Below, one piece after another: positions 42,191 through 56,526 of a stretch of DNA of 64,000 bases (the first letter of the stretch is position 1; every line of letters starts with the position of its first letter). Both the position numbers and the translations under genes were made by a program. The stretch lies in the NCBI GenBank assembly GCA_947176915.1, contig CAMWSM010000002.1:1-64000 (forward strand), in the 5' to 3' direction. Source of the DNA: an uncultured Porphyromonadaceae bacterium (GTDB taxonomy: Bacteria > Bacteroidota > Bacteroidia > Bacteroidales > Muribaculaceae). A model generated the notes under the pieces. That model saw only the letters and a list, made by a program, of their open reading frames with translations. It did no database searches and was not told where the DNA came from.

Positions 42191-42991
42191 TCAATTTATA
42201 AGGGCAATTGGAAGATAAAGAGTTGAGGAAAGGACTCCTAATACAAAGGAGACGATTATCCATATCTGGGCATTCTCAGAAGAACGCTTTGCCCCCTCTA
42301 TGTCTCCGGAATAATATTTGGTGGACACCTGTGAGGAATAGATTATAGCAACGATTCCCGGAATCATGCAGCAAAGCACCGTTATTACAACCGACCAGAC
42401 CAAATAGGATGGCGGCATCTTCTCCTGATTTTTCTCTGCAGCCTGAGGATTGTTGGGAGTGGGAGTCGTAGGTTGAGCATATACGGGAGCGGAAGAAGAG
42501 GACTGAGTCCCTGGAATAGGAGGGGGAACCTCGCGAAGATTGTTTTCATTATAATCTATCTTGAGAGTCCTTGCCCATTCCTCATCTATTGAGACAGGTT
42601 CTTTTGGAGTAGGGATTGCAGGATGTGATTCCTCTTTAAAAACAGCCACAACTTCACGCGGAGCCTCCTCCTCAGAGGAGATATTAAACGAGTCTAAATT
42701 GCCGAATGAGTTCTCATCCGTCTCTTCAGATTCGGGCTCGACCCAATTTTCAAGAGCAATTTTATCCACTCCTTTTTCAATTAAAGAATTCAGCACGCCC
42801 TCTTTCCCCTCCTTCCATTCCTCCTTGGAGAAGAGCATGACAGAGGAGTCTATTTTACTGATCTCTTCAAGTGTGGCAGGAGAATCCGCTATAACCGCTT
42901 CCACTCTGATTCGGTTTCCCTCATTGAAAAGGGAGATTACACGCCGGGTTGCAGCAGGATCGCCGGAAACGAATATCGCTATTTTTTTCAT
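42191..42991 (-). CDS. PurN-like N-terminal fragment fused to CD225/dispanin membrane domain
   Basis: About 266 residues from the ATG at 42991; the upstream TTG at 43018 overlaps the -7 element. Residues 1-85 resemble the start of phosphoribosylglycinamide formyltransferase: KKIAIFVSGDPAATRRVISL, then VEAVIADSPA and VMLFSKEEWKEG. The catalytic second half is missing. An acidic then Pro/Ser-rich linker (~90-200) leads to a CD225-type pair of membrane helices (~205-228, ~245-265) with CCMIPGIVAIIYSSQVSTKY between. It is probably a membrane protein with a cytoplasmic non-enzymatic domain; no function is known. Confidence 0.8.
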   Translation of the reverse strand: MKKIAIFVSGDPAATRRVISLFNEGNRIRVEAVIADSPATLEEISKIDSSVMLFSKEEWKEGKEGVLNSLIEKGVDKIALENWVEPESEETDENSFGNLDSFNISSEEEAPREVVAVFKEESHPAIPTPKEPVSIDEEWARTLKIDYNENNLREVPPPIPGTQSSSSAPVYAQPTTPTPNNPQAAEKNQEKMPPSYLVWSVVITVLCCMIPGIVAIIYSSQVSTKYYSGDIEGAKRSSENAQIWIIVSFVLGVLSSTLYLPIALIN

Positions 42992-45725: not shown

Positions 45726-45781
45726 ATAAACAGGACACCGGATTCAATCCTTGCAAGGATTGAATCCGGTGTCCTGTTTAT
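45726..45781. terminator. Bidirectional terminator, perfect 56-base palindrome
   Basis: Two 28-base arms without a loop, meeting at TCCTTG|CAAGGA, ends ATAAACAGG and CCTGTTTAT. It separates the lipoprotein gene from the convergent caspase-fold/HEAT gene. Confidence 0.85.
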
Positions 45782-45798
45782 TACAAATTCAGCCTATC

Positions 45799-47994
45799 TT
45801 ATTTCTGAGTGCCTTTTCTGCCGTTTTCAAGGCGATTGTATGTGCGGAGAGCTTCATTCCTTACACTCTTGGAGCGTTTTTTATCCTTGCTCATTTTCAG
45901 AGCCACCTCGCTTATGTCAGGGCGACGGAAGGAATTTCTGAACCATCCCAAAGCCTCAAGCAGATCAACTGTTACCTCATCGTTTTTAGTGTTCTGAACC
46001 GCTTCAAGGAGTTCGTCGACATTCCAGTGCATTGTTGAATTACGGAATGTACGGATTGCCGATTTCTTTTGTTTTACAGTAGCGGAATCGTTTTTGCATA
46101 CTGTCTGAACATCCTTAAGACGATATGAGTTGGCATATTTGTCAAGAGCGTGGGCAACATAACCTTTTACTTTTTCTCCTTCTGCATAGTCAAGGGGATC
46201 AAACTGACGGTCGAGTTCAGCGATGAGGGAGTCGGCAGGATAGTAGGAAGCTGCCTGGCTTATGCCAAATTCAATTCTCTTGCCGGTATTATTTTTCTTT
46301 GCCAACTTGACCAGAGCCGGAATAAGTTCCTTATCACCGCGTTTGGCTATATAATTGAGTCCATAACGCTGAATCATTTCGTAGCTGTCGTCAGGAATCA
46401 TCTCCAGACACTTCACAAAATTCTCATCATCATAGAGGGAAAGAAGAGTCATGGCTTCCATACGCACAACTTCCGAAGGATCGTTTGTATAGATTTCAAG
46501 CAGACGGTCGGAGTCAATCATGTCATTATCAACAAGCTGGCGCATAGCCATAACTCTTATTGAAGGATATTCCGAATTGAGTTGACCTTTCCACCATTCC
46601 GCAGGCTGATTTAACATTTCGTTTGCATCCAAACCCTCTACGGCTGATTTGAAATGGAAAGCGGGGTCGCCTATGCAGTGGCTCTCAAGGTAAGTGTTGT
46701 ATTTCGGGAGATTGCCCACACGCATCCCAAGACCGACAAGTCCGAGATAACGGTCAGACCACTTGTCCTGAAGCACATTCACGCTATTTGCTATTGTGGC
46801 TGCCGTCTTTCCATCATCGAAGATATAGGATCCTGCGATATATTTGGGGAGATGGTAGGATCCGTTGAAGCAAGCATCCAGAATGACAAGGCGGCAATTA
46901 GGGGTGAAGTCTTCAAAATCTTCTACATAGAGATTAAGATTTCGCTCCATAATGGAATCATGCTTGCGGTGCTCTTCACTCTCTTCATCCTCAAACCATT
47001 CTACAGGGAGACCTCCGAGATTGCGGGCGACATTACGCTTAATGCTGTCGTCGGGAGTGCCTTTGCCGCGATGACGGCGATAGACGTAGTTTGCATAGTC
47101 TTTGATGGTATGAACCATCTCGGTGGGAGTCTCGGGATCCGGCTCGTTATTGAGATATTCCGTCTCAGGCATTCCGTGGTGATGAAGGAGGGCTACATCA
47201 AGATCCCTACGCTGAAGTTCAGTCATGAGTCGGTTTTTAACAAACTTGTCGCGCTTATGGTCGATGTATTCGATGCCGTTTTTGCGTGTATGCATCCAAG
47301 GGAAATTCTGCAGATAAGCCCCTTTCTCATCGATGCGCGCAACAATTGATTCCGAAACGAAGCCGTGTCCGGCAAAGAATAGAAGCTGATCAAGCACATT
47401 GTTTTCATTACGAAGCTCAACAATTTTTGTCAGGTAGTCGCGCAGGAGTTTGTAGCGGTCATCTTTCCCATTGTCAATAGGGCGAATACGTCCTGAGTAG
47501 ATATCAGGCTGAAGATACTGAGGAGAGTCTGAGCGGAGAGAATAGTAATAATAGAGAGGCTCGTCGGCATCCTGCTTGATATAGTCAAACTGCAGATCGA
47601 AATCATCGTAATATCTGTCAGAAGGAACAGAAGACTCATTCCATGGATATTCTGTCTGATTCATCTTGAAAGCTGAGGTCAGATGCTGCGCGTCTCTCAC
47701 CATTGGGATTGGAATATCTCCTATGAACACAACTCCTTCGAGGGGATTTGTCTTGTCGTTGTAGAGATCAAGAAGTTGTTTGCGTATCTTCTCAGGTGTG
47801 TCTACATTATCCTTTATTATTACAGGTTTGAGCCCATCTTGAGCTATTGATTTGGCGTAAGCTTCCACTTCTTTTGAAGCCTGCGAATAGCTTTGAGGAT
47901 CGATAACGATTGCAAATCCTCTTTCAAGGGCGGCGGCAGGGAGGAAAGCGGCCAACGCCATAGTCCCTGCCATTATATATCTTTGGATTTTCAT
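45799..47994 (-). CDS. Secreted C25-like (gingipain-type) caspase-fold protein with HEAT-like repeats
   Basis: 731 residues. A signal peptide (MALAAFLPAAALE) is followed by a peptidase C25-like core: GVVFIGDIPIPMV (~87-99), SDRYYDDFD, PDIYSGRI, a His in LLHHHGMPE (His273), a Cys in LVILDACFNGS (Cys375) and IGDPAF near ~441. The His-Gly/Asp-Ala-Cys dyad is the clan CD signature. Residues ~470-725 form alpha-helical HEAT-like repeats, where C25 relatives usually have Ig-like or sorting domains. It is the last gene of a TonB receptor/DUF4876/DUF6850 run. It may process or scaffold an exported substrate; targets are unknown. Confidence 0.82.
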   Translation of the reverse strand: MKIQRYIMAGTMALAAFLPAAALERGFAIVIDPQSYSQASKEVEAYAKSIAQDGLKPVIIKDNVDTPEKIRKQLLDLYNDKTNPLEGVVFIGDIPIPMVRDAQHLTSAFKMNQTEYPWNESSVPSDRYYDDFDLQFDYIKQDADEPLYYYYSLRSDSPQYLQPDIYSGRIRPIDNGKDDRYKLLRDYLTKIVELRNENNVLDQLLFFAGHGFVSESIVARIDEKGAYLQNFPWMHTRKNGIEYIDHKRDKFVKNRLMTELQRRDLDVALLHHHGMPETEYLNNEPDPETPTEMVHTIKDYANYVYRRHRGKGTPDDSIKRNVARNLGGLPVEWFEDEESEEHRKHDSIMERNLNLYVEDFEDFTPNCRLVILDACFNGSYHLPKYIAGSYIFDDGKTAATIANSVNVLQDKWSDRYLGLVGLGMRVGNLPKYNTYLESHCIGDPAFHFKSAVEGLDANEMLNQPAEWWKGQLNSEYPSIRVMAMRQLVDNDMIDSDRLLEIYTNDPSEVVRMEAMTLLSLYDDENFVKCLEMIPDDSYEMIQRYGLNYIAKRGDKELIPALVKLAKKNNTGKRIEFGISQAASYYPADSLIAELDRQFDPLDYAEGEKVKGYVAHALDKYANSYRLKDVQTVCKNDSATVKQKKSAIRTFRNSTMHWNVDELLEAVQNTKNDEVTVDLLEALGWFRNSFRRPDISEVALKMSKDKKRSKSVRNEALRTYNRLENGRKGTQK

Positions 47995-48015
47995 GTTTAG
48001 CAGTTTAATTTGATT

Positions 48016-49581
48016 TTAGAAGACAAATCCGAATCTGCCTCCTATGTTGAGACGGTCAGAGCCAACATACCGGTCTTCGTTTATGCGTCCGCGGTATCCC
48101 CCATCTACACCCACTTCCATAACTGAAGAATAACCTAATATTCTTACCGGCAGTGAATATGTCAATGATGCGCCGGCCTGCCAGAAATCAGCAATCTCGG
48201 CATGAAAGGCGGGACGGGTGTAAAGTTGCATGATACGGTCGTAAGTATCTGGCATACCACTTAGGTTTATAGAACTTTGGAGTTTCATCCTGCAGCCTGC
48301 GTTAAGCCCGGCGGCAAGGATGCCTTTCTTAATCTTAAATCTCCTTGTGGCCGAGAGATTCAGCCAAACGTTAGAATAAGATTCCTTCGCCCCATATACC
48401 TTGTTTTTGGTTTCTGAGTTTTCAATTCCCAAGGTTGCCTCTCCTTGGAAAAGAGGAAGACCTGATGAAGAGAGGCGGTCGAAACGGTATCCGAGCTGTG
48501 CCTCCATATCGGTAGCTTCGAGGTTGTCGCTGGCATTGATTGTCTCGTAGATAATGTTGCCGTTCTCATCAGTACTTGTACGCTGGGTATACCATTTCCC
48601 TTTACTTGAGGCCATTGAACCGGAAAGGGTGAAATTATGCGCTGTCCGTTTGCTTGGACGTAAGCAGAATCTTTCAGAAGCCCGGAAACCGGTGGCGGAA
48701 TAACGACCACCTTTATATCGTTGGGCGTTTTTGCCGTCGGTAGCGTCTTCAAACTCACTGAAGAATCCACCTTCAAGGAAATTTGAGATTCTTGCATCCC
48801 CGGAATTGTTGAAAACATACTGTGCCTGCACACCCCAGTGGGTTCCGTTGTATTTCCTGCGGTAGCCGATAGCTTCCTTAGTTTCAAAGATGCCTAGTCC
48901 TTGAAACAGGAGAAGATATTGCGGAGTGGTGGTTTTGACGACAGTATGGGTGACCTCTTCCGACAGCCATTCCACTTCACCTGACAATCCGACTGCATGC
49001 CTTCCGAAAGAATATTCCACACCGGGAGTAAGGCGGAAACGCATCCCTTTGATTTCAGGCCGTGGGTCTTTCTGAGTGGCAGAGCTACCGACAAGATAGG
49101 TCGCCGCAAGGCCTAACAGAAGATTATCCGAAGGCTTATAAGCAGCTCCCCCATGGAGATGGAAAGTCTCGGGGTGGAAAGTGCTTTTCAACGAGTCGGC
49201 GATGATAAATGGGTTGCGGTCAGAGATAAACAGGGTGTTGTTCCAGCGACGCTCGCGAAGGGAGGAATTGTTATAGACAAGGAAACCATTGAACGTTACC
49301 TTCCCCACACGTTTCATGCCGGAAAAAGAGGCTTCCCAGGCAGAAGAGATGTTGGCTCCGTCGATAAGATGGAGGTTGCCATTCTCATATCTGTAGCCAA
49401 GGTGGAGATCCGCTAAATCCGATATAGGCATATAGTGGACAGCCACCGGATTGGAACTTTCGGCTGCCACATTGCCTAAGTATTGGCGGTCGGCATAGTC
49501 CACCTTTAGGTCGGTCTGAGCAAAAGCACATGCCGAAGAAAGGAGCACTGCGGAAATCAGCGATGAAAGGTGTTGGTTCAT
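48016..49581 (-). CDS. DUF6850 family outer-membrane beta-barrel protein
   Basis: 521 residues with a signal peptide (SAVLLSSACAFAQ). The rest is a series of amphipathic strands with aromatic-rich turns ending in LNIGGRFGFVF (terminal Phe), the layout of a ~16-strand outer-membrane barrel. I recall this family as DUF6850 next to DUF4876 genes; the assignment rests on that pattern and gene order. It lies 21 bases before the C25-like gene in the transcriptional direction and 77 bases after the DUF4876 gene. Confidence 0.78.
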   Translation of the reverse strand: MNQHLSSLISAVLLSSACAFAQTDLKVDYADRQYLGNVAAESSNPVAVHYMPISDLADLHLGYRYENGNLHLIDGANISSAWEASFSGMKRVGKVTFNGFLVYNNSSLRERRWNNTLFISDRNPFIIADSLKSTFHPETFHLHGGAAYKPSDNLLLGLAATYLVGSSATQKDPRPEIKGMRFRLTPGVEYSFGRHAVGLSGEVEWLSEEVTHTVVKTTTPQYLLLFQGLGIFETKEAIGYRRKYNGTHWGVQAQYVFNNSGDARISNFLEGGFFSEFEDATDGKNAQRYKGGRYSATGFRASERFCLRPSKRTAHNFTLSGSMASSKGKWYTQRTSTDENGNIIYETINASDNLEATDMEAQLGYRFDRLSSSGLPLFQGEATLGIENSETKNKVYGAKESYSNVWLNLSATRRFKIKKGILAAGLNAGCRMKLQSSINLSGMPDTYDRIMQLYTRPAFHAEIADFWQAGASLTYSLPVRILGYSSVMEVGVDGGYRGRINEDRYVGSDRLNIGGRFGFVF

Positions 49582-49658
49582 GTCTTGAAAAGTTGTCGGT
49601 TAAGGTAATTAATAGAAGCGGAGACCCATCGGCCTCCGCTTCGGGATGAGGTTTTGAC

Positions 49659-50906
49659 TTAGTCAACTGTAGTGGGAATCACCCCAGGTGTGGGAGTAGA
49701 ACCGCCAGTCACGAAGTCATTTGTAGAATTGTTAGTGTCTTTGAGGATAGCTTTGCCATCGATAGTGAAACCAGCCACTTTACGACGGAGGCTCTTACCG
49801 GTGTAAGAACCAGAACCACCGTTTGCTCCAGATACCCAAGTCATGCCAGCGTCATCCTTTGCTTCGATACGCTTGACGTGGTCGGCAGGATCCGCGTTGA
49901 CGATATCAATAGCATCCAGGACGCAGTCAACAGGAATCATGAAACAATTGTTAGTGCCACCAGGAACAGGGGCTACAGAAGAAGCGTCAGCTGCATATGC
50001 CACGGGATCAACTCCAGCAGGAAGTTTAGCAAGGATAATAGGTTGACCATCAGTAGCAGGCATCATTTCACGCCCCCAAGTCTTCCAGATGTTTGTCATG
50101 TTTGGAACGCCTTCAAACTTAGTGTCAGTGATAAAGCCTGTCAAATCCACATAGAGTTGCCAATCTGCATTTGTAAGGTCAACGGGAGAAGGATCGTCAC
50201 CTTCTGCGAGCACGCGAGCGGTGTGGTTCATTGGGTTGGCAGCTACTACGATGCTGGTTCGTGGCTGTATAGGATATTCCTGACCTGAACCGGGGAAGCA
50301 CTGCACGTGGCTTGTCAGAGGATATTTTCCATCAATGTATTTGCCATCAGCCATCCAAACAGAATTGAGGCTCTTGTCGGAAGAGCTTGGAGCAAATCCG
50401 AAATCTACGATACCCATGATAACACCGTCAAGATATTGCACTTCATCAGTGTTATTGTAGATTTCATAGAAAGCGTCTTGGAAGTAGTAGGCATTCACAC
50501 CAGAGAAATAGACCTCTTTGAAGACAAGAGTACTGGGTACAGTAGCTATGAGGTCGATTGTCACACTCTTGTTAGAGAATACGTCGACGCCGGTTTTTAC
50601 ACCGTTGATGTTATAAGATTCGAGTTCACCGGAAACGGTAATGTTATAAGTACCGGGGATAAGCTCAAGAGCAGCTGAATTGCCATTGACGGGAGCTACT
50701 GAACTCTGGGAAGTTGATGTGTTGAAGGCAGTCACATAAAGAGATGCCGGTTGTGTCTCAGAAGCTTTTGTCTGAAGCTCAGAGGGGAGTTGTACGTTTA
50801 CCGTCAAAGTGTGACGGATCACTTCATCATCGCTGCTGCACGACGCGAAGCCGAGGAACATAGCAACGATAGGGAGAATGTAAAGAAATTTTCTCATTGT
50901 TGTCAT
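49659..50906 (-). CDS. DUF4876 lipoprotein
   Basis: 415 residues. The start is at 50906 (MTTMRKF) or the internal Met at 50897. A lipoprotein signal (FLGFASCSSDD) is followed by an N-terminal beta-sandwich (RHTLTVNVQLPSELQTK) and a domain with PSTLVFKEVYFSGVNAYYFQ and DAFYEIYNNTDEVQYLDG, seen in lamin-tail-like DUF4876 proteins. It is probably a surface- or periplasm-facing lipoprotein that partners the TonB-dependent receptor, as SusD-like proteins do for SusC, but it shows no SusD features. Confidence 0.82.
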   Translation of the reverse strand: MTTMRKFLYILPIVAMFLGFASCSSDDEVIRHTLTVNVQLPSELQTKASETQPASLYVTAFNTSTSQSSVAPVNGNSAALELIPGTYNITVSGELESYNINGVKTGVDVFSNKSVTIDLIATVPSTLVFKEVYFSGVNAYYFQDAFYEIYNNTDEVQYLDGVIMGIVDFGFAPSSSDKSLNSVWMADGKYIDGKYPLTSHVQCFPGSGQEYPIQPRTSIVVAANPMNHTARVLAEGDDPSPVDLTNADWQLYVDLTGFITDTKFEGVPNMTNIWKTWGREMMPATDGQPIILAKLPAGVDPVAYAADASSVAPVPGGTNNCFMIPVDCVLDAIDIVNADPADHVKRIEAKDDAGMTWVSGANGGSGSYTGKSLRRKVAGFTIDGKAILKDTNNSTNDFVTGGSTPTPGVIPTTVD

Positions 50907-50998
50907 TGTTAGTTAAAAATGTATATTACGTTTTGTTATATCTTTTCTTTTTAGGCTCGAGGTTCAAGTTTCAAGATTTTAGGAAAAATTCCCTAACA

Positions 50999-51030
50999 CC
51001 CAATAACCCAATAACCCAATAACCTAATGC
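50999..51030. repeat. Octanucleotide tandem repeat CCCAATAA, three copies plus a degenerate one
   Basis: CCCAATAA repeats at 50999-51006, 51007-51014 and 51015-51022, followed by CCTAATGC. It fills the short gap just after the TonB-dependent receptor stop and before the DUF4876 gene. Confidence 0.85.
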
Positions 51031-51031
51031 T

Positions 51032-53902
51032 TTAGAATTTAAGTTTCACTTCCGCACCGAAATACATCGGTATGGTAACATCTTTCCAGCCCACGGCAGT
51101 CTCAAGTTTATGGGTCTTCATAAGCTTGAGGAAGTTATTGGCCATAAAGGATATCTCCACAATCTTGCCGAACTCTTTGGTGAGACGGAAGTTAAGAATC
51201 GCACTTGTGGGCAGTTTTTCTGTATCGAAAGCACGCGGGTGAACGTATGTAGCCACCATATAACGGTAGACGGGATCGTTGATGAAGCTCTGCTCCCAAG
51301 GTGTAAACGCCCCTTTGTCATTTACGAACCCCACGGGATTTACGGCATATACCTCACGATTTGGAGAGAAAGGATCTTGAGTTTTATAGACAAGGCTTTT
51401 CCCCGCGTTATTCTCATAAATAGCCTGATAAGATTCACGCCAGATCATCTGCAATGTTGTAGTGAAGATGAGCTGGAGTTTAGGTATGTGGGTGATGAAA
51501 CGGAAATTCGTGTTGAAACGTGAGGAGATGGTTCCACTTCCACCCGGCATAAGTGCAATGTATGGATAAGTATCACCGTTCACAGTTGCTGACACAGGAG
51601 AATAGTAGTCGGCTGTAGAGCGACGTTTTATCCAAAGATAAGCTCCATCCACCGATATTGAAGTCTTTATAGCCGGAATGGCTGCAAGATTAATCTGATA
51701 CTCAATACCCCATTTCTTTGTGGAGACACTGTTGGAGGGCATAAGGTAGGAGAAATAGTAGGTGTGGGGAGTTGCGGTTGCATCATGCCATTCTCCGTTT
51801 GATTCATATTGCACCTTCCCATCCTCATATTTGACAGCATCAATACCTGTCGGAGTAGAGTAGCGGTTGGCCTCCATTATTACAGGCTGAGCCACATATC
51901 CGAACTCGTTTTTATGACGCTCGTTGAAGTAGTTGACCATACCTGACACCTTGTTCTTGCGGAATGTGAACCCACCTTCTGCCTTGTAGCTGAATGCCGG
52001 TTTGAGGTTGGGATTGGCAGTATTGTCAATCACCTTTGTTGTCATAACTGCGAGGGATTTCCCTTTCTCTCCTGTTATATCGTCTTGGAATAGCAAAGCG
52101 AATGATGTCACATCAAAATATGCCATGTCAGGATAGAACTGCAGAAGAGTAGGGGTCTTCATCGCCACACCATAGCCGCCGGCGATACTGAAATCCTGAA
52201 GAAAGGAGTTGTTGTCGGCGTTGAGGATGTTATAGTCAATGTTAAGACGAGGCTCAACAGTTGTCATATCGCCACGCTTTGCCTGTTCATCGTCAAGGAA
52301 GATATGGGAGAGACGGGCTCCTGCCTGTGCGGTCAGGGAAGTTGTTCCGATAGGTGTCGTCACCTTGTCTTCCAGGAAAGCAGAGATGACGTTCATTGCC
52401 GGTATGGAGTTGAACGGGCGGGGACGGATAGACTGATTGTTTGTGATCTGCGGGGGGTGTTTCTCATCGAAAGTCATGCCGACACCGTAGTTTTTATTAA
52501 ATCTCCATTCGGCACCAAGCTTCACGTTCATGAACGCACCATTCTGGAAGTTGAAAAGGCGTTCAGCTTTCAGCTGGGCGTAGAGGTCAAGGGGTTTGCC
52601 GACAATCTTGCTCCAAGCATAGTAAGTGGAGGAGAGATAGAATGTCTGATATTCTTTGTCAGAGGTGGCGTTGCCAACCGGTGTAATGCCTGACTGGAGA
52701 ATGACCTGACGGTTGGAGTAATCGGAATCATAACGGAAATTGGCGGAGGCAGCGAATGTCAGGGTAGAGATCCAAGGGAGTTGGAGACTCCAGTTACCGT
52801 CCACGGAGAGACGTCCTCCTATTGTCTTGTTGTTTACCCTTTCATTATAGACCAGTTCAGGGTCGCTCTTCTCATTATTAATGCTTGAGAAGAATGCAAA
52901 ACGAGCATTGAAGGAGAGAGGGCGGCTGTCTTTCATAAACACATTGCCATAGCCTGTGCTGAAAGTAATACGGTCGTAACCAATATATTTCTGACGGATG
53001 TCACTGTAAGACTGAGAGTAATCGGCTGTAACGCTAATTGCTCCACCCTTTGACAGTCCGAACCCTTTTCCTGCGTATGCCATTTTTGAATAGGGATCCG
53101 CCTTAAGCTTTATTTCCCAAGGAGTGGCGCCGGTTCGTGATTTCACGATAACCGCCCCGGAGGTAAGGTTTCCGTATTCAACAGATGGAATACCTCTTAC
53201 AACTTCTATAGATTCTATGTTGTCGGGCGAGATAAGGCGGAGATCAACACCTTTCCCTGCCGTGGACTGTGAAGGAGTAGACCCCCCTCTGCTCGTTGTG
53301 AAAGTCTGCATATTAGCGTCATTAGACATCGGAGCACCATCTACAACGACGAGCGTGCCGGCTGCATTATTCGCGTTATTGTCTATTTCGCGAATCTGAG
53401 CTTGCCCGATGCTGTTAAGGTCGGGATTTTTGGTAACATTACCCGGCACGAGTTGCATCATATCTTCCAGACTTTTTGGTTGTATATGTTGCACAGCCTC
53501 ACGTCCGATCTGTGAAGTAGAGCCCATTCTCTTCGCATTGGCGGTAACTGTAACTTCATTCAAAGCAAGACTGAGGGGACTCATTTTTATCTCCACGCCT
53601 TCAACGGATTTCTTGAGATTGATGGATTGACTATAGGGCTTATATCCGGTGGATTGCACTACCAGCTCGTAAGAACCCGGGGTAAGGTTGCGTATCGTGA
53701 AAAGCCCTTTATCGTTTGTCTCCGCCCAGATGTTACGCTCAGCGAGCTGCACAATGACGAATTCAAGGGGTTCGCCTGTATCAGCATCCGATACTTTTCC
53801 GGAAATGGAAAGCGTACCTTTCTGAGCCAATGCTTCCATAGGGATTAAGAGTGCCAATAAAGAAAGCACTGCTAAAAACAGAAGGTTAGTTTGTTTCGTC
53901 AT
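51032..53902 (-). CDS. TonB-dependent receptor with carboxypeptidase-like N-terminal domain
   Basis: About 956 residues from the ATG at 53902, chosen because it begins the signal peptide (LLALLIPMEALAQ); the longer frame to 53992 reaches the promoter. Residues ~28-105 form the carboxypeptidase-like domain (LSISGKVSDADTGEPLEF), ~120-290 the plug (VTVTANAKRMGSTS, LVVVDGAPMSNDAN, IESIEVVRGIPSVEYGNLTS) and the remainder the barrel. No SusD homologue follows; a DUF4876 lipoprotein does. It probably takes up a substrate processed or bound by the C25-like and DUF4876 proteins. Confidence 0.93.
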   Translation of the reverse strand: MTKQTNLLFLAVLSLLALLIPMEALAQKGTLSISGKVSDADTGEPLEFVIVQLAERNIWAETNDKGLFTIRNLTPGSYELVVQSTGYKPYSQSINLKKSVEGVEIKMSPLSLALNEVTVTANAKRMGSTSQIGREAVQHIQPKSLEDMMQLVPGNVTKNPDLNSIGQAQIREIDNNANNAAGTLVVVDGAPMSNDANMQTFTTSRGGSTPSQSTAGKGVDLRLISPDNIESIEVVRGIPSVEYGNLTSGAVIVKSRTGATPWEIKLKADPYSKMAYAGKGFGLSKGGAISVTADYSQSYSDIRQKYIGYDRITFSTGYGNVFMKDSRPLSFNARFAFFSSINNEKSDPELVYNERVNNKTIGGRLSVDGNWSLQLPWISTLTFAASANFRYDSDYSNRQVILQSGITPVGNATSDKEYQTFYLSSTYYAWSKIVGKPLDLYAQLKAERLFNFQNGAFMNVKLGAEWRFNKNYGVGMTFDEKHPPQITNNQSIRPRPFNSIPAMNVISAFLEDKVTTPIGTTSLTAQAGARLSHIFLDDEQAKRGDMTTVEPRLNIDYNILNADNNSFLQDFSIAGGYGVAMKTPTLLQFYPDMAYFDVTSFALLFQDDITGEKGKSLAVMTTKVIDNTANPNLKPAFSYKAEGGFTFRKNKVSGMVNYFNERHKNEFGYVAQPVIMEANRYSTPTGIDAVKYEDGKVQYESNGEWHDATATPHTYYFSYLMPSNSVSTKKWGIEYQINLAAIPAIKTSISVDGAYLWIKRRSTADYYSPVSATVNGDTYPYIALMPGGSGTISSRFNTNFRFITHIPKLQLIFTTTLQMIWRESYQAIYENNAGKSLVYKTQDPFSPNREVYAVNPVGFVNDKGAFTPWEQSFINDPVYRYMVATYVHPRAFDTEKLPTSAILNFRLTKEFGKIVEISFMANNFLKLMKTHKLETAVGWKDVTIPMYFGAEVKLKF

Positions 53903-53989: not shown

Positions 53990-53997
53990 CAAAATTA
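53990..53997 (-). promoter_or_regulatory. Bacteroidota -7 element, TonB receptor cluster
   Basis: The minus strand reads TAATTTTG followed by CAATC, with ATTG about 20 bases further upstream as a -33 candidate. The leader is ~80 bases. Confidence 0.65.
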
Positions 53998-54211
53998 TTT
54001 AATTTTTTTAAGTTCTACAATCCCTACTTTATGGTATATTGCTATATTTAACTATTCTTCCATATTTTAACAAAACGTGTAATTTTAATTATAAATTTAG
54101 TTTATAGGAAGATATGGAGATGAAATGAATAATTATTCGATTTTATTTAACTAAAAAATAATAAACTGAAATATAAATTTTTTCTGAAATTGATAAAATT
54201 GAAAATAAAAA

Positions 54212-54268: not shown

Positions 54269-56479
54269 TTATTTCACTACAATTTTTTCGCGTTTTTCAC
54301 CTTTGACAAGAATATAGACGCCGGGTGATAGATTATCAACGGACGGTTCGCCGAAACCCTTGGATGCTATGCTTCCGGCAAGGGAATATATGACGTAAGG
54401 CACAGTTTTAATTTCTTCAATTTCCTCAACTCCGGTGAATTCATCATTGCTTGAGCCTAATCCATTGCCAAGAGAGTTGGAGGAGGTCCAGAATTCTTTG
54501 GGATACAGAGTCTGCATCTGCATGCCATTCACTTTATATTTGAGGAGAAGACTTTTCACGTCCTTATAGGGCACCGGCATATCGTATTCCCCTTTCAGAC
54601 CCATCGAAACCTCATAGCTGTCGTTGACGACCATCACGAGGTTTGTCACTTCGCTTTCTCCGGTCCAGGTCTTTACAAACATCCGGGAGCCCTCCTTGTT
54701 GATTGAAAGTTTGAACATCTGTTTCACCTGACGTCCCGATTCCTTCACTTTGGCATAGTTTTCAGCACACCCGCCTGGAACATAGTAGATACCCCGAGAG
54801 GCGATATACTCGTTTTCGCCATTACCGTTAGCATCTGAAGCGGGATCATATTGATCATTCCCGTAATCATAAATGGTGGGGTCGAAAAGGTCACAGTAGA
54901 AATTTGGGGTGACTTTCGCTCCGTTCTTACCTTCAAAGAGATTACGCAGAGGCATAGAAGCATATTTCTTTGATTTGTCTTTATTGCGGGTCAAAGCGAG
55001 ATAAACAGATGGGGTAAACTCAGTCTGGTCGCCGATAGGTTTATATCTGAACTGAGGTGTGTAGGTTTTATTGCAGAATGTGCCTAAATATATTTCAGAC
55101 AGATTAGTGGCATTGAAAGCGGGATCCATATCTTGTGTAGCTACAAACCAAAGGAAGTCGGGAGCAATGAATGTCCTTAGATTATGGCAGTTTTTCCCAT
55201 AGCCCATTCCAACGGTCATATATTCATTACCGGTCTTTATGGCAGACATATCGATTTTTTCCAAGTCCGGGCTATTCGTAAACATATAATTGCCATTTGA
55301 GAATATATCCTCGCAAACTGTCCCTTTGAACACAGCCTTTTTGATGCCGGATTTGTAGAGGATTGAATCACCCTCCCAACTTGTGCCGGCATCGAATGGA
55401 AAGTCAAGAAGAGAAGGACAATTCATGAAGGCTTTCTGGTTAATCTCTTTGATAGTATATTTAGAGGTTACACCGGAAAGCAGAGGACAGTTGTGGGCGA
55501 AGTCGTCTCTACAGATAAAGTCTTTAGCCTCAATGGTAATTTCCTTTAGGTTGGGAGAATTGGTAAACAGCTCTTTTTCGGCGTATTTTACTGTCTTGGG
55601 GATTGTGACATGTTCAACGCTTGAACGATGTGTCAGACGAGTGCCTAACTCTACAGCGCTTCCGAGATCGACAGCGATCAAGTTTTTGGTGTTAGCGAAG
55701 GCAAAAGGTCCCACTTCATACACTCCCGAAGGGACGAGACAGGATGTGGCTTTTGAGGCGCAGGGAAAACTGATAAAAGCCGGTTTCCCCTCATAGCTGC
55801 CCTTTTTGTCTATGAGACAGCCATCAACCAAATAGAGATTATTGCCTGATTTGACTGTAGCGATTTTATATGTGGCGATGTTTTTTGCTTTATTGAGTCC
55901 ACCATTATACCCTATTGACAAACTGGAGGGGAGAGTGAGTTCTTTGACTGTGGAGTTGTTGGTGAAAGCATCCTTGGTGAGGCTCCAGCATTGATCAGGG
56001 ATACGGTATTTCCCGTTTTCGACCGCCATTTTAGCCGGGACTTTATAGAGGATGTTTAGGTTTTTATAGTAAAGTGCACCATATTCGTCAGTAGTGAAGA
56101 ATGGGTTGCCATCTTCAACAATAAACTTGACAAGGCTCGTACATCCAATAAAGTTATTAAATTCGGTGCTGTTCCAACCGGCTTCAGAGAGCTTGGCATC
56201 TCCGATACCTACTATGGTTTTCGGGATGGTGATTTCAGTGACGTCTGTGAGGTCATTTAGGGCATCCTTTCTAACAGCATTGACGGTATATGTTTTACCG
56301 TTGGCATTGGTATAGGAAGAAGGGAGTTTGAGTTTGCCGGAAGATGGTTGGGACCCGGACCAGCCATTTATGCGACATGTCATTTTGTCGGAATTGAAAT
56401 TGTCGCAATGCCAGATGATGGCATTTGCCTGAAGAGCCATCACCACGATGGCGGAGAGAGTAAAAAATTTACGCAACAT
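54269..56479 (-). CDS. BspA-like leucine-rich repeat surface protein
   Basis: About 736 residues from ATG 56479 (MLRKFFTLSAIVVMALQANA signal peptide); the longer frame overlaps the promoter. Treponema/BspA-type LRR_5 repeats run from ~85 to ~450, as in VTEITIPKTIVGIGDAKLSE, VKELTLPSS and EHVTIPKT. The C-terminus ends in a sorting-type tail (VPYVIYSLAGSIASKGFG, GVYILVKGEKREKIVVK). BspA-like proteins mediate adhesion or protein-protein contacts at the cell surface. It has its own promoter and terminator and is not part of the receptor cluster. Confidence 0.87.
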   Translation of the reverse strand: MLRKFFTLSAIVVMALQANAIIWHCDNFNSDKMTCRINGWSGSQPSSGKLKLPSSYTNANGKTYTVNAVRKDALNDLTDVTEITIPKTIVGIGDAKLSEAGWNSTEFNNFIGCTSLVKFIVEDGNPFFTTDEYGALYYKNLNILYKVPAKMAVENGKYRIPDQCWSLTKDAFTNNSTVKELTLPSSLSIGYNGGLNKAKNIATYKIATVKSGNNLYLVDGCLIDKKGSYEGKPAFISFPCASKATSCLVPSGVYEVGPFAFANTKNLIAVDLGSAVELGTRLTHRSSVEHVTIPKTVKYAEKELFTNSPNLKEITIEAKDFICRDDFAHNCPLLSGVTSKYTIKEINQKAFMNCPSLLDFPFDAGTSWEGDSILYKSGIKKAVFKGTVCEDIFSNGNYMFTNSPDLEKIDMSAIKTGNEYMTVGMGYGKNCHNLRTFIAPDFLWFVATQDMDPAFNATNLSEIYLGTFCNKTYTPQFRYKPIGDQTEFTPSVYLALTRNKDKSKKYASMPLRNLFEGKNGAKVTPNFYCDLFDPTIYDYGNDQYDPASDANGNGENEYIASRGIYYVPGGCAENYAKVKESGRQVKQMFKLSINKEGSRMFVKTWTGESEVTNLVMVVNDSYEVSMGLKGEYDMPVPYKDVKSLLLKYKVNGMQMQTLYPKEFWTSSNSLGNGLGSSNDEFTGVEEIEEIKTVPYVIYSLAGSIASKGFGEPSVDNLSPGVYILVKGEKREKIVVK

Positions 56480-56518
56480 GTAAGAATTAGTTAAGATAAT
56501 ATTCGGTGTTTTCGCCTG

Positions 56519-56526
56519 CAAAGTTA
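56519..56526 (-). promoter_or_regulatory. Bacteroidota -7 element, LRR gene
   Basis: The minus strand reads TAACTTTG followed by CAGG, 39 bases before the ATG at 56479. Confidence 0.6.

Follow-up and report, generated by a model that had tools for sequence, protein, structure and literature searches.

Within a 64,000-nucleotide stretch of DNA from an uncultured Porphyromonadaceae bacterium of the family Muribaculaceae (assembly GCA_947176915.1, contig CAMWSM010000002.1, positions 1 to 64,000; hereafter the window), four successive minus-strand genes (45799-53902) encode a TonB-dependent receptor, a DUF4876 lipoprotein, a DUF6850 outer-membrane protein and a protein in which a gingipain-like catalytic domain is joined to HEAT repeats (the C25/HEAT peptidase). 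The four genes lie in a row exactly as an earlier sequence-only reading had placed them and are separated by gaps of 21, 77 and 125 bp (Table 1). That reading had proposed that the genes serve uptake or surface processing and include a peptidase-like effector, and this is the interpretation that we favour based on a gingipain-type fold, an invariant catalytic dyad and a recurring gene order.

Table 1. Positions of the genes, predicted catalytic codons and predicted control elements of the four-gene unit in the window
Feature	Position	Strand	Basis
TonB-dependent receptor, CarboxypepD_reg-like N-terminal domain, 956 aa, first gene of the unit	51032..53902	-	Pfam
DUF4876 lipoprotein, 415 aa, predicted surface-exposed	49659..50906	-	Pfam; lipobox, acidic residues after the Cys (CSSDDE)
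DUF6850 outer-membrane beta-barrel, 521 aa	48016..49581	-	Pfam; model
C25/HEAT peptidase, 731 aa: signal peptide, gingipain-like catalytic domain (23-453), HEAT repeats (463-727)	45799..47994	-	
Codon of predicted catalytic His273 (HHHG)	47176..47178	-	invariant in 143/143
Codon of predicted catalytic Cys375 (DACFNGS)	46870..46872	-	invariant in 143/143
Predicted unit promoter: operator ATACC-N8-GGTATT (one mismatch; 54019-54037) and Bacteroidota-type -7 box TAATTTTG (53990-53997)	53990..54037	-	
20-pair hairpin between convergent genes, probable terminator of the unit	45731..45776	.	hairpin scan

The encoded proteins

The receptor matches the Pfam families CarbopepD_reg_2 (E 4e-18), Plug (1.7e-13) and TonB barrel (8.1e-14), and its ratio of nonsynonymous to synonymous differences (pN/pS) is 0.12 in comparison with the near relative L022. 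As noticed earlier, the unit holds no SusD gene by Pfam and it is the DUF4876 gene (E 5.7e-30) that adjoins the receptor gene instead. The DUF4876 lipoprotein is akin to PDB 4q1z (E 2.1e-29). Acidic residues after the lipobox cysteine are a mark of surface lipoproteins in Bacteroidota; DUF4876 proteins have a lipobox in 60 of 64 cases and at least two acidic residues behind it in 49 of these 60. The DUF6850 protein (E 2.6e-83) forms a barrel for which we counted ~18 strands in the predicted model. An assignment of this barrel to the FadL/PorV or TonB barrels was dropped because no family stood out in the comparisons, and a literature search on DUF6850 found no publication.

For the 731-residue protein, the sequence-only reading had described a C25 core followed by HEAT repeats in place of Ig or sorting domains. 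The motifs on which it relied (HHHG, DACFNGS and IGDPAF) are all in the translated sequence, the C-terminus consists of HEAT repeats (HEAT_2, E 7.4e-8), and no sorting domain was found, with no NCBIfam match at E 0.01. The C25 core stands as a gingipain-type fold in the AlphaFold2 model, but not as a Pfam assignment, as the match to PF01364 extends over residues 29-209 only and scores 19.9 bits against a cut-off of 23. To judge by its sequence, the protein is a divergent branch, hence the label C25-like. The model (pLDDT 94.5, pTM 0.92) places one strand (267-271) directly before His273 and another (369-373) directly before Cys375. When the predicted structure was compared with gingipain, as the sequence-only reading had advised, a caspase-type fold was matched rather than being absent, and gingipain came out top by far in Z. 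A sequence search of PDB with the C25/HEAT profile gave HEAT-type chains and one weak unrelated match, no gingipain, and a literature search joining peptidase C25, HEAT repeat and Bacteroides found nothing.

His273 and Cys375, in this order, are invariant in 143/143 aligned sequences, of which a few are a single gene fetched twice, and of the two retrieval patterns one includes the Cys motif, the other pattern and the tandem neighbours being independent of it. Because of this invariance, we reject the idea that the protein is a pseudoenzyme or a pure scaffold; it is predicted to be a probably active peptidase. The two are separated by 101 residues in the window protein and by only 35-47 in 16 of the 143 sequences, which we take to be close to the spacing in RgpB and the gingipains. 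Short-spacing copies of ~650-666 aa are found at L035, L039, L042-L046, L048, L051, L054, L072, L087 and L088, mostly in tandem with longer copies, and perhaps have another specificity.

The sequence-only reading had also called the peptidase secreted. It may be, but from the features in the sequences we favour the periplasm for the peptidases, because in the window's protein the signal peptide is a plain one and no sorting domain was found, and because the lipoboxes of its relatives have no acidic surface signal. In ~43 of the 143 C25/HEAT sequences, a lipobox cysteine lies 5-8 residues before the catalytic domain and is followed by basic or polar, not acidic, residues, a pattern suggestive of a periplasm-facing membrane anchor. 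The position of these lipoboxes relative to the domain start led us to reject that the 44 matches, one of which is plainly spurious, arose by chance. Copies of this predicted lipoprotein type are found at L039, L043, L045, L046, L051, L054, L087, L088 and other loci.

Conservation of the operon

Among 198 genomes of the order Bacteroidales, the peptidase was matched in nine, namely the window's own, G047 (HEAT similarity only) and seven others; excluding the HEAT-only match, C25/HEAT is present in 8/198. All seven others have the order receptor-DUF4876-DUF6850-C25/HEAT, the C25/HEAT gene occurring one to three times. In G165, DUF6850 was recognised by Pfam only, in G142 the C25/HEAT gene is ~3.3 kb apart from the rest of the set, and G166 has a split receptor frame. 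In Coprobacter secundus (L015/L036), the receptor frame consists of two open reading frames (ORFs) of 664 and 275 aa.

A scan of the genome collection returned 551 stretches encoding a relative, the best 80 of which were taken and gave 79 loci. Among the 54 C25/HEAT runs in these loci that have at least 6.2 kb upstream, the full order lies within 5.5 kb in 49, while two (L058, L099) have DUF4876-DUF6850 within 5.5 kb. The recurrence of the gene order in other genomes, proposed as a check by the sequence-only reading, was thus found. The operon is real, widespread and conserved, and of the TonB-uptake kind. The C25/HEAT genes number one to five per locus and are diverged and in tandem. Those at L053, L056 and L059, and also those at L018 and L062, where little upstream sequence is covered, are orphans that lack the uptake core and adjoin two genes of ~480 and 392 aa. 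A second C25/HEAT copy in the L018 genome belongs to a full operon.

Iron induction of related loci

DUF4876 is present in 34/198 genomes and DUF6850, above cut-off, in 32/198. We picked 32 core loci (L139-L170) for having no C25/HEAT gene found there (0/32); they contain DUF4876 (32), the receptor (31) and DUF6850 (28) and, next to these, an ATP-binding cassette (ABC) ATPase (23), a permease (23), DUF4857 (21), a small lipoprotein (16) and PepSY (11). The idea that the C25/HEAT and the ABC/PepSY versions exclude each other was refuted by five hybrid loci (L070, L083, L092, L094 and L100), which have C25/HEAT together with the ABC/permease/DUF4857 set. Both outfits therefore serve one kind of core.

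In the available text of PMC10434189, iron depletion induces BT3625-33 (DUF4857, ABC, PepSY, DUF4876, TonB receptor) 36.7-128-fold, BT1933-39 (IS256, hypothetical proteins, HEAT repeat protein, DUF4876, TonB receptor) 3.5-7.4-fold, and PG1019-22 of Porphyromonas gingivalis (DUF4876, TonB receptor) 20.8-214.5-fold. For a hemin comparison, the accessible part of PMC10470040 gives a DUF4876 gene, listed close to HmuY, the value -5.42, whose quantity that part does not name. BT1933-39 is most likely the gene set described here with three C25/HEAT copies, as matched by gene order and neighbours. Its counterpart L210, in a Bacteroides-genus genome (G354), has an IS256-type transposase (PF00872), three C25/HEAT genes, DUF6850, DUF4876 and the receptor; beside it are a ParA-type gene and a B12-type locus (DUF4465, DUF5074, TonB receptor, Peripla_BP_2, FecCD, ABC). 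In B. thetaiotaomicron, BT1944-45 include a ParA gene (PMC10434189, available text), BT1954 is BtuG2 and BT1957 is the first gene of B12 locus 2 (PMC6143338, available text). The sister operons, and the promoter described below, suggest that the core is tied to iron.

Over 12 kb, the L210 set shares 99.97% identity with its equivalent in a different species, G228, and it is flanked by an integrase on one side and by broken-frame integrase domains on the other. In Bacteroides, the C25/HEAT set is probably a mobile nutrient-uptake island. Near-identical 12-kb sets, with a B12-type locus, integrase domains and an IS256-type transposase nearby, occur at L210, L211 and L214-L216 in two Bacteroides-genus species.

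A shared operator

By aligning upstream regions, we obtained an inverted repeat that was refined to ATACC-N8-GGTATT, 21 bp and TAnnTTTG, the last presumably being the Bacteroidota -7 box. With at most two mismatches and a spacer of 20 or 21, the operator precedes the receptor gene in 21/47 C25/HEAT loci, the window included, and in 5/30 core-only loci; the number of matches expected from order-1 Markov copies was 0.0. The pattern was itself derived from these regions, so a genome-wide search is the better test; allowing no more than one mismatch, it gave 69 sites in 20 genomes compared to 4 for the reversed pattern, and 17 of the 20 genomes have at least one. Nine of the 69 precede a core receptor, judged by position.

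We examined 32 loci with operator sites, of which 28 have a downstream gene and four have none. The genes among these 28 are core receptors (5), other TonB receptors (6), FeoA-FeoB (L250), PepSY (L252), an ABC transporter (L263), hemerythrin genes (L251, no mismatch; L226, in the window's own genome, three mismatches) and cysK (L220, L256). The other ten genes look porin-like by eye or show no visible iron link. The cysK site in the window's own genome (L220/L231, C5:35900-35947) has no mismatch and that of L256 has one. The best sites in this genome precede cysK, behind which lies a LuxR-type response regulator gene (no mismatch), the four-gene operon (one) and a gene without a Pfam match (two). 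Eight more have three mismatches, and the two that were inspected precede a hemerythrin gene with a LuxR-type regulator, i.e. the CdhR arrangement, and a gene for a GerE-containing protein. In G259, we rejected that the operator adjoining C25/HEAT drives a papain-like/HmuY gene, since by eye a SusC/SusD-like pair lies downstream.

The operator would sit near -42, and its half-sites appear to resemble NarL heptamers in the 7-2-7 layout. We infer that it is the site of a CdhR-type regulator. CdhR regulates hmuYR by a mechanism that, in the available text of PMC10434189, remains unclear.

Papain-like and HmuY-like genes in related operons

The operon extends into a gene for a ~510-aa papain-like protein in 42 of 90 loci (43 ORFs), the loci without it including some at contig ends and a few loci being one contig fetched twice. 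Three fragments were excluded from the alignment, and among the remaining 40 proteins Peptidase_C1 is matched in 17, while Gln79, Cys84, His243 and Asn276, which we take to be the papain catalytic set, are invariant in 40/40. The near relatives L022 and L024-L027 have this gene. After it lies, in 31 cases, a gene for a ~130-aa lipoprotein. All 31 lipoproteins match HmuY, the first member at positions 2-72 of the 157 in the profile, and the profile of the small lipoproteins finds PDB 8b61 (E 1.1e-19) and HmuY 3h8t (E 1.8e-11); at the sequence level, the resemblance to the N-terminal half of HmuY is clear. As for the papain-like protein, its C-terminal end matches HmuY at 110-157 in the first member, and 11/40 members match HmuY weakly; the C-terminus also matches residues 147-196 of PDB 8b6a weakly (E 0.14), and the lipoprotein profile covers residues 10-129 of 8b6a. 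Since each half has its own gene and the gene order is the reverse of the order of the halves, a frameshift is not the cause. A profile comparison of the alignments of papain-like and HmuY-half proteins found no mutual similarity, which is expected of different halves and is no proof of them.

The HmuY-half proteins have a lipobox in 30/31 cases, with at least two acidic residues behind it in 19/30. The papain-like proteins have plain signal peptides, and 15 of their 17 lipobox matches are the catalytic cysteine. Judging from these signals, we favour different placements, with the HmuY half at the surface and the papain-like protein in the periplasm. We rejected these genes as part of the window's system because, as far as the searches reach, none was found in its genome.

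Flanking features

The 20-pair stem downstream of the unit is notable for its length; the hairpin scan as a whole gave 10 terminator-like sites compared to a shuffle mean of 10.0. A 12-pair GC-rich hairpin at 49615-49642 (minus strand), in the gap between the DUF4876 and DUF6850 genes, may cause the receptor/lipoprotein and barrel/peptidase halves to be expressed differently. Upstream, beyond the unit promoter, lies a BspA-type LRR gene (54269-56521), which we do not count in the unit. Elsewhere in the window, 42191-42988 (minus strand) encodes a protein of 265 aa that contains a CD225 (interferon-induced transmembrane) domain (Pfam, E 1.1e-23).

Discussion

Based on these data, we suggest with moderate confidence that the four genes encode a TonB-dependent system in which iron/heme uptake is coupled to proteolysis, the enzyme being a gingipain-like, probably active peptidase. 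The genes, the fold, the invariant dyad, the conserved gene order and the shared operator were computed here, and the iron induction of relatives is taken from print. We make the link to iron/heme because the same core also pairs with the ABC/DUF4857/PepSY module and there are published reports of induction by iron depletion for both kinds of locus, the peptidase kind being matched by gene order only; because the operator before the receptor gene also precedes feoAB, other TonB receptor genes and a hemerythrin/CdhR-type gene; and because in relatives the operon extends to a papain-like peptidase (42/90) and an HmuY-half lipoprotein (31). Iron control of the core alone we rate higher than this full proposal, and any named substrate lower.

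In the mechanism that we propose, a LuxR/NarL-type regulator, most likely of the hemerythrin-linked CdhR type, would act during iron shortage at the operator centred ~42 bp before the start site and switch on the four genes. At the cell surface, the DUF4876 lipoprotein would capture a protein or peptide that carries iron or heme and, aided by the DUF6850 barrel, pass it to the TonB receptor. The C25/HEAT peptidase would hold this client on its HEAT repeats and cut it with the gingipain-like dyad, and cleavage would free iron or heme, most likely in the periplasm. In relatives, extra C25/HEAT copies, the papain-like peptidase and HmuY-like parts would have been added to the operon. Peptidase activity, substrate, compartment and the identity of the regulator are the parts of this scheme that we infer.

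Several observations weigh against this proposal. Iron induction was measured in species other than that of the window, it is modest for BT1933-39 (PMC10434189, available text), and BT1933-39 was equated with the gene set described here by gene order and names instead of by its sequence. Three of the 54 C25/HEAT runs (L053, L056, L059) have no core gene upstream. As the operator was derived from the same upstream regions, its presence in 21/47 loci is no independent test, and 26/47 C25/HEAT loci and 25/30 core-only loci are without it at two mismatches. It also precedes cysK, porin-like, SusC/SusD-like and a number of unidentified genes, and the regulon is therefore wider than iron uptake. The CdhR-type site in the window's own genome is weak because the pattern at three mismatches is not enriched there (11 compared to 12 in the control). 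Finally, the papain-like gene was found in only 2/9 genomes searched and neither at the window's site nor elsewhere in its genome, the controls G060 and G298 being positive; no HmuY partner was found there either, in a family search that matched no control and by itself shows little.

PorU, the maturase/sortase-like protein of the type IX system, is of the C25 type. The C25/HEAT enzyme could similarly trim or anchor proteins of its own operon, for example the DUF4876 lipoprotein or the receptor, and digest no nutrient. The C25 fold, the strict operon linkage (49/54 runs) and HEAT repeats that fit a single protein client would agree with such a role; yet the core does without the enzyme, as DUF4876 occurs in 34/198 genomes and C25/HEAT in 8/198, a papain-like peptidase is often added, and one to five diverged tandem copies fit digestion with multiple specificities better than one maturation cut. 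We consider a maturase unlikely. Slightly less likely still is a peptide-nutrient importer analogous to SusCD/RagAB, with DUF4876 in place of SusD, a digestive peptidase and incidental iron control. A TonB receptor with a CarboxypepD_reg domain, a peptidase in the operon and an operator that also serves cysK and SusC/SusD-like genes are what such an importer would have, whereas the absence of SusD from the unit, the 37-128-fold induction by iron depletion of the same core beside ABC/DUF4857/PepSY genes, the HmuY-half lipoprotein in 31 relatives and the operator before feoAB and hemerythrin genes speak against it. We consider it highly improbable that the protein is caspase-like and acts in signalling or defence (as CHAT, TPR-CHAT or separase-like), with the HEAT repeats serving as its sensor, given the N-terminal signal peptide or lipobox, the linkage to outer-membrane genes and gingipain being far ahead in Z.

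Beyond iron/heme uptake coupled to proteolysis, we tentatively speculate, while thinking it rather doubtful, that commensal Bacteroidales possess a one-operon "gingipain plus hemophore" machine under a CdhR-type iron operator, combining C25/HEAT and papain-like peptidases with a two-chain HmuY-fold hemophore. The N-terminal half of this split hemophore would be the lipoprotein and the C-terminal half would be fused to the papain-like peptidase, such that heme proteins would be cut and their heme caught within a single complex supplying a dedicated TonB receptor. A reduced form with the C25/HEAT peptidase alone would then be present in the window.

The proposed coupling of uptake and proteolysis gives DUF4876, DUF6850 and a large gingipain-fold family (551 stretches) a testable role in iron/heme uptake in gut and environmental Bacteroidales. 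It also provides a candidate operator for the iron/hemin regulon, whose control by CdhR is called unclear in the available text of PMC10434189. If true, gingipain-like heme foraging would extend to commensals, which would gain iron or heme by breaking up proteins.

The gingipains RgpB and Kgp of P. gingivalis, which act alongside HmuY/HmuR, share the fold and the His/Cys order with the window protein. However, the latter has no propeptide (its catalytic domain starts at residue 23) and no Ig, hemagglutinin or type IX sorting domain, it has a 101-residue gap between His and Cys and C-terminal HEAT repeats, and its gene lies inside a TonB-receptor operon, often in tandem copies. BT1933-39, BT3625-33 and PG1019-22 have the receptor-DUF4876 core in common with the window, and BT3625-33 has ABC/DUF4857/PepSY in place of the peptidase; the available text of PMC10434189 names neither a peptidase nor a mechanism for these loci. 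Compared to SusCD/RagAB, the window receptor has DUF4876 as its neighbour instead of SusD/RagB. In XusABC and BtuBG of Bacteroides, a surface lipoprotein caps a TonB receptor; this arrangement is alike, but the lipoprotein families differ and there is no peptidase. In FusABC-dependent ferredoxin uptake, the TonB receptor is FusA and the protease FusC is an M16 metallopeptidase. The proposed logic is similar, with TonB-dependent import of an iron protein followed by proteolysis that frees the iron, but FusABC is without DUF4876, DUF6850 and C25, the window peptidase is C25-like rather than M16, and we do not claim homology. The system resembles gingipain/HmuY or Fus in outline and is a member of neither.
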